A stretch of DNA of 64,000 bases, taken from contig NZ_CP030265.1 in the NCBI RefSeq assembly GCF_008843145.1, positions 3,024,001 through 3,088,000 of the forward strand, given 5' to 3'. This DNA comes from Skermanella pratensis. Lineage in GTDB: Bacteria; Pseudomonadota; Alphaproteobacteria; Azospirillales; Azospirillaceae. Numbering within the stretch: position 1 is the first letter of the stretch; every line of letters begins with the position of its first letter. A program made the translations under genes and the position numbers. A model generated the notes under the pieces. The model did not search any database, was not told the origin of the DNA, and saw only the letters and a program-made list of their open reading frames with translations. Positions 20,125 to 22,398 of the stretch are shown here, piece after piece.

Positions 20125-21216
20125 TTACTTGGGCAGGGTCCCCTGGACCCCCTCGACGTAATAGGCCATCGACAGGATCTCCGGGTCGGTGGCGGTCTTG
20201 CCCTCGGCGATCACGACCTTGCCGGACTGGTCCTTGATCGGGCCGGTGAAGGGATGCAGGGCGCCCGACTTGATATCCTCGATCGCTTTGTTTCCCAGGG
20301 CCTTGACCTCGGCCGGGACGGCGTCGTTGAACGGCGGCAGGAGGACAGTCCCGGTGGCAAGGCCGCCCCAGTAATCCTCCGACTTCCAGGTGCCGTCGAG
20401 AACGGCCTGGACCCGCTGCTGGTAATAGGGATTCCAGTCGTCGACGATCGAGGTCAGGTGCGCCTTGGGGCCGAACCGGCTCATGTCGGACGACTGGCCG
20501 AAGGCGTAGATGCCGCGGGCCTCGGCTTCCTGGATCGGCGCCGGGCTGTCGGTGTGCTGGGCCAGGATGTCGGCGCCCTGGTCGATCAGCGCCTTGGCGG
20601 CGGCCGCCTCCTTGCCCGGATCGTACCAGCTGTTGACCCAGACCACCCGCACTTGAGCCTGGGGATTGACGCTGCGCAGCGCCAGGGTGAAGGCGTTGAT
20701 GCCGCTGACCACCTCGGGAATCGGGAAGGACCCGATATAGCCGATGATGTTCGACTTGGTCATCTTGCCCGCGAGCAGGCCGCAGACGGTGCGGCCCTCG
20801 TAGAAACGGCCGGAATATGTCGCCACGTTGGTGGCGCGCTTGTATCCCGTCGCGTGCTCGAACTTCACCTTGGGAAAGCGCTGCGCGACCTTCAGCGTGG
20901 GGTTCATGAAGCCGAACGACGTCGTGAAGATCAATCCGGCGCCGCCGGCCGCCAACTGGTTGATCACGCGCTCGGTGTCGGGACCCTCGGCAACGTTCTC
21001 CACATAGGTGGTCTCGATGCGATCACCGAAATGCTCGGCGATGTGGCGGCGTCCAAGGTCGTGCTGGTAGCTGTAGCCGTGATCCGAAATCGGGCCGACA
21101 TAGACGAAGCCGACCTTCAGCTTGTCCGCGGCGAACGCGCGACCAACCATCGGACCGGCACTGATGGCTGCGGCGGTCCCGGCCACCGAAAGACCGAACT
21201 GGCGTCTGTTGAGCAT
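20125..21216 (-). CDS. BMP-family ABC transporter substrate-binding protein
   Basis: 363 residues from the ATG at 21216, with GGAGGGAAC ideally placed upstream. A twin-arginine-like signal ([17 protein letters not shown]) ends near AFAA. The mature protein has the Bmp/PnrA fold, beginning [24 protein letters not shown], with the later block [20 protein letters not shown]. Family members bind nucleosides or purines, and some bind other small ligands. No ATPase or permease gene lies next to it, so the rest of the transporter must be elsewhere. It has its own leader and a hairpin after the stop, suggesting a one-gene unit. Confidence 0.9.
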
Positions 21217-21599
21217 GTTTCTTGTTCCCTCCGAGAGAGTTGGTTCAAGTGACGGGACAGGCGGGAAGCCGACCGCAGGCACCCCGGCGCAGGATGAAGA
21301 CCCGCAGGCTGGCTTGGAAGCCGGGATTTTGCTGAAAGACCTTACGCATTTCCAGGCAGGTGTACTGTTGCCCATGACGCGAGACGCCCTGCCTTTAGAA
21401 GCCGCGTGTGACCGGATGCCTTTGTACCAATTCGGCGGTATCGGCACCAACCATTTTGCCCGATCCACCCAGCATGGTAGGCGGGTTCCGCCTATTTGAT
21501 CGGACCGAACCGCAATCTGTTCACTACCAGAGCAAAGAGTCATCATTTGGGCAGAAAATGAGTGACGGCGACGCAAGCATGGCGTAAGGTTTCGCCCAC
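21217..21599 (-). other. Long leader/promoter region of the BMP-family gene
   Basis: 383 bases without a credible gene. A possible promoter on the minus strand is TTGGTG (21445-21450), 18 bases, TACAAA (21421-21426), which would give an untranslated leader of about 200 bases. Between these boxes is a near-palindrome GGTGCCGATACC. No riboswitch class was recognised. The Shine-Dalgarno at the end is GGAGGGAAC. Confidence 0.4.
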
Positions 21600-21697
21600 A
21601 AAAAGAAAAGGGCCGCGCTGTCACCGCAGCGCGGCCTGAAGTTAGGGAGGAATCGCCACCAGGCGTCGGTAAGAGGGATAAACCCTCTCAGCGATAA
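21600..21697 (-). ncRNA. Candidate small regulatory RNA with an exposed anti-Shine-Dalgarno motif
   Basis: Read on the minus strand: a -10 box TACAAT (21703-21708), then a predicted start near 21697. Stem-loop 1 follows (AGAGGG / CCCTCT, 21672-21688), then stem-loop 2 (CGCC / GGCG, 21654-21665). Next comes an unpaired stretch ATTCCTCCCTAAC (21641-21653), and finally a perfect 10-bp terminator stem (21611-21636) followed by CTTTTCTTTTT. The layout, about 98 bases with two hairpins, a CCUCC-containing single strand and an intrinsic terminator, is that of alphaproteobacterial trans-acting small RNAs that block ribosome binding. No -35 box is convincing. Identification is from structure alone. 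Confidence 0.6.
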
Positions 21698-21721
21698 AAA
21701 TTATTGTATGAGGCACTGAGC

Positions 21722-21757
21722 AAGGCAAGCCACAAAATGGAGCTTGCCTTTTCTTTT
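21722..21757 (+). terminator. Plus-strand intrinsic terminator with no obvious gene
   Basis: A perfect 9-bp stem AAGGCAAGC / GCTTGCCTT (21722-21730 and 21742-21750) with an 11-base loop is followed by TTCTTTT on the plus strand. On the minus strand no T-tract follows. No plus-strand gene precedes it within several kilobases, so an unrecognised plus-strand transcript may end here. Confidence 0.5.
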
Positions 21758-21828: not shown

Positions 21829-22398
21829 TTAATCTCGGAATCCGATGAACCCCGCCCTCTCCGCCCGAATCCACGGCGGATCGAGCGATTCTATGTGCTG
21901 ATGCACCGGGCAGCCTGAATGATGGGCACCGGGCAGGTACCCGAGGCTCATCAGGAACTCGTTCACGATTTCCCCGCCGGTGAAGCGGAACTGGCTCTTG
22001 AACAGCTTTACCCAGCCGGCGTTGTCCAGGGGATGGTGGTGATCCAGCCAGCCGACGAATCCGCCATGGGTGCCGCGCAACGCCCGCACCCGGCGCGCGT
22101 TCTCGATCACGGCATCGATCTTGAGCCGGTTGCGGATGATGCCGGCGTCGCCCAGCAGGCGCGCCCGGTCTTCCTCGCCGTAGGCGGCGATCCGGTCGAC
22201 GTCGTAGTTCTCGAACGCGGCGGCGAAGGCTTCGCGCTTCTTCAGGATGGTCAGCCAGGACAGCCCGGCCTGGTTGATCTCCAGGACGAGCCGTTCGAAC
22301 AGGACACGCTCGTCGTCGGAGGGAAACCCGTACTCGGTATCGTGGTAGGGTCCGTGCCACGGATGCCCGGGTGCCGCTTCGCAATAGGACAAACCCAT
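21829..22398 (-). CDS. tag: DNA-3-methyladenine glycosylase I
   Basis: 189 residues. Tag excises 3-methyladenine from alkylated DNA. The sequence matches the family along its length: YCEAAPGHPWHGPYHDTEYG at the start, LFERLVLEINQAGLSWLTILKKREAF with the catalytic-pocket Glu, the helical block DRARLLGDAGIIRNRLKIDAVIENA, and the zinc-binding C-terminal region with HHSGCPVHQH. It starts about 25 bases after the DUF1467 gene ends and may share its transcript. The terminator of the small RNA downstream would also stop it. Confidence 0.95.
   Translation of the reverse strand: MGLSYCEAAPGHPWHGPYHDTEYGFPSDDERVLFERLVLEINQAGLSWLTILKKREAFAAAFENYDVDRIAAYGEEDRARLLGDAGIIRNRLKIDAVIENARRVRALRGTHGGFVGWLDHHHPLDNAGWVKLFKSQFRFTGGEIVNEFLMSLGYLPGAHHSGCPVHQHIESLDPPWIRAERAGFIGFRD

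Follow-up and report, generated by a model that had tools for sequence, protein, structure and literature searches.

A predicted two-RNA locus in Skermanella: an alphaR8-like anti-Shine-Dalgarno small RNA and its putative antisense partner

What appears to be new at the locus described here is a conserved antisense unit lying opposite an alphaR8-like small RNA. Within the window (the whole 64,000-nucleotide stretch of Skermanella pratensis DNA that was analysed), both strands carry promoter and terminator patterns around one overlapping stretch, the plus-strand promoter pattern being weak in Skermanella. We propose that the locus would make two overlapping RNAs, an alphaR8-like one from the minus strand and its full complement from the plus strand, and we assign a probability of about 0.6 to the whole statement, i.e. 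an alphaR8-like repressor together with a cis antisense antagonist. That both RNAs are produced, what Hfq and RNase III would do, which way the regulation would run and which messages would be hit are all inferred. If the proposal is true, a conserved antisense RNA would equip the widespread alphaR8 family with an intrinsic off switch, and might account for the control of ten or more similar anti-Shine-Dalgarno RNAs in one genome.

Structure and conservation of the minus-strand small RNA

The minus-strand features and their neighbouring genes are as follows.

21604..21695, minus strand: alphaR8-like small RNA, about 92 nt (fold, RF00519 match, orthologues and covariation; start placed from the promoter)
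21700..21728, minus strand: small RNA promoter, TTGCCT, 17 nt, AATAAT (pattern kept in orthologues)
21671..21689, minus strand: hairpin 1, 5' arm purine-rich, 3' arm pyrimidine-rich (fold and paired changes)
21654..21665, minus strand: hairpin 2, CGCC-UGGU-GGCG, near-invariant (fold, orthologues, covariation)
21644..21653, minus strand: exposed anti-Shine-Dalgarno core AUUCCUCCCU (unpaired probability, conservation)
21604..21636, minus strand: intrinsic terminator, stem 21636-21611 and T-rich tail (terminator scan, paired changes)
21829..22398, minus strand: tag, methyladenine glycosylase, the usual upstream neighbour (Pfam PF03352, Adenine_glyco)
20125..21216, minus strand: BMP/PnrA-type binding protein, neighbour in Skermanella and candidate target at most (Pfam PF02608, Bmp)

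The initial annotation had described hairpins, an unpaired motif and a terminator on the minus strand, and all of these were recovered at about the same coordinates by sequence, fold and terminator scan. The predicted fold consists of two hairpins, then an unpaired stretch with AUUCCUCCCUAAC, then the terminator, at -44.3 kcal/mol against a shuffle mean of -28.74 (sd 3.13; z -4.97; 0 of 200 shuffles as low). The scanned terminator (21636-21611) has a 10-bp stem with nine G-C pairs and the tail CTTTTCTTTT, and each of the ten bases of the core AUUCCUCCCU is predicted to be unpaired with a probability of at least 0.99. A promoter does precede the RNA, as had been claimed, but the TACAAT box first proposed as its -10 element is misplaced: it leaves a spacer of 14 nt, and a relative (locus L003 of genome G001) lacks its first T. 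The best -10 element is AATAAT, 3 nt further on, with TTGCCT 17 nt upstream (21728-21700), together matching 9 of 12 consensus positions, a score for which 0.5 sites are expected in shuffles of the same 1.6-kb region. The pattern TTG[CT]-N-.A...T is found in 66 of 68 distinct orthologues (shuffle mean 7.1). The RNA lies outside genes, between the end of tag (21829) and the ATG of the BMP gene (21216), and the 499-codon GTG frame that overlaps it is only an upstream extension of the BMP frame. With structure, promoter and core all conserved, the earlier description of a trans-acting type of small RNA with an exposed CU-rich anti-Shine-Dalgarno motif is supported, and a small RNA at 21604-21695 on the minus strand is almost certainly real.

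The hairpins and the CCUCC segment are kept in relatives. BLAST with a 101-base query gave matches in 34 of 59 genomes, the own genome included, and TTCCTCCCT stands at the expected place in all 30 loci fetched, from 30 genomes; of the remaining four genomes with a match, G019, G023 and G031 have it where an RF00519 sibling lies, and G018 is the fourth, with a match that has no assigned place. An exact 20-mer of the window type occurs in 61 stretches of another genome collection, mostly from Azospirillum, Niveispirillum, Nitrospirillum and Skermanella, and also from Oceanibaculum and unnamed groups; columns within the 20-mer are invariant by construction among these 61. With a covariance model built from 41 window-type sequences, 84 window-type loci scored at least 62.5 bits, many of them having been in the model or resembling its members, and all sibling matches scored at most 41.6 bits. 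In a class-wide even sample of 289 genomes, 55 match the model at E 1e-6, of which 19, spread over ten families, score at least 60 bits, the next score being 52.1.

Across 60 distinct rows, all six modelled pairs of hairpin 1 have changed on both sides (76.7% of cells paired), as have six of the ten terminator pairs; hairpin 2 shows hardly any variation. All five covariation measures exceeded 500 of 500 shuffles as well as slid controls, in an alignment fitted to the tested structure, which favours it. RNAalifold, applied to the same alignment, recovered hairpin 2 and the terminator and did not predict hairpin 1. G-U outnumber A-C combinations in the terminator (57 vs 3) and in hairpin 2 (7 vs 0), so that the minus-strand fold is the maintained one; for hairpin 1 the counts (44 vs 34) leave the strand undecided. 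In five Azospirillum loci (L017, L021, L075, L096, L123) hairpin 1 has a further UUCCUCCCU in its 3' arm, where it pairs with a GAGGGAGG arm of the same RNA, a possible hidden second anti-Shine-Dalgarno sequence. Hairpin 1 was also considered as a possible self-sponge; the predicted fold in the window is dominated by the local hairpin.

An alphaR8-like branch with many siblings

The nearest known family is alphaR8 (MmgR, SisA). The Rfam model RF00519 (suhB, described as MmgR) matches the small RNA at 35.6 bits, short of its cut-off of 41 bits (E 6.4e-6 for the 331 bases searched), and two of its orthologues, in G012 and G033, reach 41.5 bits. As described in PMC12559287, alphaR8 RNAs have a core, UUUCCUCCCU, which is stated to be present in every member, with a weak hairpin before it and a terminator after it, occur in several copies per genome and act in an anti-Shine-Dalgarno mode; in Caulobacter crescentus, SisA-D are sponged by CrfA, whose G/A-rich sequence pairs with the alphaR8 core. 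In Sinorhizobium, MmgR restricts the storage of polyhydroxybutyrate, and two reviews (PMC8401924, PMC7143759) know of no direct target for it.

The small RNA has the same layout, a weak hairpin 5' of the core and a Rho-independent terminator 3' of it, and it shares with MmgR of Sinorhizobium meliloti and SisA-D the hairpin, the exposed CU-rich core, the terminator and the presence of several copies per genome. It differs from them in its core, AUUCCUCCCU, which agrees with UUUCCUCCCU at nine of ten positions, in the extra covarying hairpin 1, in its own tag-linked locus and sub-threshold Rfam score, and in the antisense unit on the other strand. On account of the core and the Rfam score we call it an alphaR8-like sister branch rather than a member. 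Over 77 distinct loci, the changed core position is A in 75 and U in two (L150 and L151), which come from other families, have the same neighbour genes and carry UUUCCUCCCU; the switch to A may have happened inside the window-type branch, where AUUCCUCCCU sits inside a near-invariant CGCCUGGUGGCGAUUCCUCCCUAAACU. On sequence comparison the small RNA is a divergent alphaR8 relative with a subfamily of its own, mostly behind tag, in ten families of the class-wide sample, and that it would work as an alphaR8-like anti-Shine-Dalgarno repressor is highly probable. The comparison with AbcR made in the initial annotation proved unneeded: Rfam gives seven matches at E values up to 10, and no AbcR is among their names, the comparison with AbcR being one of names only.

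Usually, alphaR8 RNAs adjoin an N-formylglutamate amidohydrolase gene. Four such genes are present in the genome, none less than 200 kb from the small RNA, and the shortest distance from one of them to any RF00519 match is about 10 kb. At E <= 1, RF00519 has 12 matches in the own genome: six over the cut-off, that of the window, three others with E <0.001, and two weaker. A weaker match at 1517311 (21.7 bits) carries GCGUUUCCUCCCU and the match at 3490543 (30.2 bits) is without CCUCCC, and we therefore count about nine siblings (L031-L038 and L069), which have UUCCUCCCU in common. At E 0.001, Skermanella genomes, including this one, hold 10 to 14 matches each, and other genera of the family 2 to 11 (Nitrospirillum 2 or 3).

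Three genomes from a single family each have three alphaR8-like matches one after another inside about 620 bases:

G195:C4:3801093-3801709: triple alphaR8-like array
G067:C7:54434-55052: triple alphaR8-like array
G292:C1:743771-744388: triple alphaR8-like array

A Niveispirillum record (L076:3777-3869) has an alphaR8-like match of 41.6 bits about 1.2 kb upstream of the window-type RNA. Literature searches on mmgR in Rhodospirillales found no papers, searches by sequence strings or by alphaR8 found nothing beyond the alphaR8 papers already named, and an Azospirillum brasilense RNA-seq paper (PMC7685610) is without suhB or mmgR in the passages searched, the four core strings being absent from its main text.

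Promoter and terminator patterns on the opposite strand

The plus strand carries three features, which together would delimit the antisense RNA.

21562..21590, plus strand: antisense promoter, GTGACG, 17 nt, TAAGGT, 7/12 to consensus (pattern; found at loci of other families too)
21598..21757, plus strand: putative antisense RNA, about 160 nt, spanning the whole small RNA (promoter and terminator patterns; fold z -5.48)
21722..21757, plus strand: antisense terminator, AAGGCAAGCC...GGAGCTTGCCTT and T-rich tail (dyad patterns in orthologues)

The antisense promoter, of the sigma70 type, is placed just past the small RNA terminator, and the antisense terminator just upstream of the small RNA start, where one of its arms also serves the small RNA as its -35 region. 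In many orthologues outside Azospirillum the plus strand reads [A/G]TGAC, a 17-nt spacer, then TATACT or similar (TATACT/TATAGT), and upstream of the small RNA start lies a dyad, GGCAAG...CTTGCC, with an inner stem that varies and still pairs and a T-rich tail on the plus strand. A plain 9-of-12 rule detects the promoter in 22 of the 68 distinct orthologues (shuffle mean 1.5; at most 6 in any of 50 shuffle rounds), and a fitted pattern detects it in 33 (shuffle mean 0.24; flank windows 0/267); for the terminator, a plain stem-and-T rule gives 30 of 68 (shuffle mean 2.5) and a fitted pattern 35 (shuffle mean 0.1). Under the fitted patterns, drawn up after the sequences had been viewed, 30 orthologues have both elements, 30 neither, three the promoter only and five the dyad only; under looser patterns, relaxed again for this count, 77 distinct loci divide into 40 with both, 32 with neither, four with the promoter only and one with the terminator only. 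The class-wide search yielded 16 loci, five of which repeat earlier ones by score. Among the eleven new loci, unseen when the patterns were first noticed, eight have the promoter (in L150 farther from the small RNA than in the others) and six the dyad, with one further variant dyad. In a tree built from 60 of the 77 loci, both elements are missing throughout a supported group of 27 rows, all Azospirillum except one record titled Roseomonas. The elements change only four and five times on this tree, with one independent pair on well-supported branches, and their linkage is thus not proven statistically.

Weakness of the antisense promoter in Skermanella, where it is kept in 5/5 genomes with scores of 7 or 8 of 12, below the plain rule, bears on a rather unlikely yet serious alternative: that only the small RNA exists, the dyad being an operator or UP-element region and TGAC-N17-TATACT being silent or serving something else. 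A dyad arm does overlap the -35 box, with an A-tract before it, and wobble counts in the dyad (G-U 16, A-C 11) do not settle the folding strand. Such a reading sits poorly with an inner dyad that varies in sequence and length yet pairs, with the T-rich side on the plus strand as in a terminator; with a promoter motif of near-constant 17-nt spacer and place; with the lack of any plus-strand gene between the motif and the dyad; and with the way promoter and terminator go together. The promoter pattern is absent from 8/8 own-genome siblings tested. We consider it likely that an antisense RNA is made in at least most of the lineages keeping the elements.

In the two-RNA proposal, the unpaired AUUCCUCCCU of the small RNA would cover Shine-Dalgarno sequences, probably with the aid of Hfq, lowering the translation of a set of messages. 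Binding of the antisense RNA would mark the duplex for RNase III, opposing transcription from the antisense promoter would also lower small RNA synthesis, and the small RNA would act only when its own promoter outweighs that of the antisense. The antisense copy of the core is predicted to be partly exposed (0.38 to 0.97 unpaired), and a 20-nt duplex of core and antisense to have -37.3 kcal/mol; the same antisense segment with eight siblings has predicted values of -22.6 to -27.6 kcal/mol. The prediction is directly testable as two RNA sizes and two start sites, and Azospirillum is a natural group in which no antisense RNA is expected.

Trans-acting small RNAs with a cis-encoded antagonist are described for E. 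coli (PMC6610125) and Campylobacter (PMC8687705). PMC6610125 reports that SdsR and RyeA of E. coli, two small RNAs from opposite strands, undergo mutual degradation and transcriptional interference. They resemble the present pair in coming from opposite strands of one locus; the RNAs themselves are unrelated, and the pair here is a predicted one. CJnc190/CJnc180 of Campylobacter jejuni, as presented in PMC8687705, offers a model for an antisense RNA that removes or blocks a small RNA, in an unrelated sequence and lineage. Both systems suggest by analogy that the antisense RNA here would eliminate the small RNA or block it. CrfA of Caulobacter, the sponge of SisA-D, is likewise a G/A-rich RNA pairing with the alphaR8 core, but is encoded elsewhere in its genome, whereas the RNA here would be an exact complement in cis. 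The word 'antisense' occurs in PMC12559287 in the reference list only, and a search for literature on antisense and small RNA in Skermanella found none. The antisense RNA would also carry AGGGAGGAA, complementary to the UUCCUCCCU common to the eight own-genome siblings tested, and one switchable RNA would thereby release the whole alphaR8 regulon; by analogy, it is conceivable, if doubtful, that the antisense RNA is such a general sponge, ancient in this part of the class, with a loss in Azospirillum.

Candidate targets and gene neighbourhood

The initial annotation had tied the small RNA to the adjacent BMP gene. The seven pairs that it counted with GGAGGGA before the BMP start are present, one of them being G-U, and several of the strongest pairings in a sample of 360 genes, crudely called in the window and 20 further stretches, are with transport genes (among them two DctP binding proteins, a glutamate symporter and a permease). 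Silencing of the adjacent BMP gene by an AbcR-like RNA is nevertheless very unlikely: the ribosome site of BMP pairs with the small RNA at -11.4 kcal/mol, a value equalled or beaten by 105/360 genes (10/50 in the window), and BMP does not adjoin the RNA outside Skermanella, save in one opposite-strand case. BMP is the neighbour in 5/30 fetched loci, all Skermanella, and in the other collection stands at the same place and strand in 2/61 loci, both Skermanella, the third match being on the opposite strand; on these counts, the gene is a newcomer beside the small RNA. BMP is therefore unsupported as a special target. Its site pairs better with the sibling core GUUUCCUCCCUAGACUCA (-16.3 kcal/mol, as strong in only 25/360), which makes a sibling the likelier BMP partner.

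Searching the own genome for the complement of the extended core with <=2 mismatches gave seven matches, against four for a reversed-pattern control; three of the seven are antisense sides of the small RNA and of two siblings, and of the other four only L159 precedes a start codon, that of a livH-type permease (13/15). Since the extended matches are not above the control, target candidates are leads, and the livH-type permease is put forward as a lead only. The permease site recurs in G001 and G002, and a search with the livH-type protein at E 1e-100 gave no match in G003 and G004. Two own-genome copies of the permease (L189, 4785221-4786105; L203, 3251888-3252772) encode identical proteins and have different upstream regions, the AGGGAGGAACCG site standing upstream of only one. 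In 20 relatives, the extended-complement search returned only antisense sides of the small RNA and AGGGAGGAAACG sites; those compared (e.g. in G007 and G009) are siblings, and we assume the same of the rest.

The gene tag lies upstream on the same strand in 20/30 fetched loci and in 44/61 of the other collection (57 with room), so one might see in the unit merely a tag 3' untranslated region with its terminator, a most improbable reading given a near-invariant CGCCUGGUGGCGAUUCCUCCCUAAACU that far exceeds terminator needs, a unit kept without an adjoining tag by tblastn (e.g. L074, L094, L125), a promoter pattern of its own and homology to alphaR8 RNAs. A 3'-derived form of tag might exist in addition to the small RNA from its own promoter. 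Downstream, proS is found in 27/61 loci (49 with room), and Pfam confirmed a tRNA-synthetase domain besides Bmp and Adenine_glyco. Two records with the RNA have unexpected titles, one of Roseomonas genomospecies 6 (L119), which groups inside Azospirillum on the tree, and one of Anaerolineae (L117), which carries this alphaproteobacterial RNA; both are probably mislabelled or contaminated.
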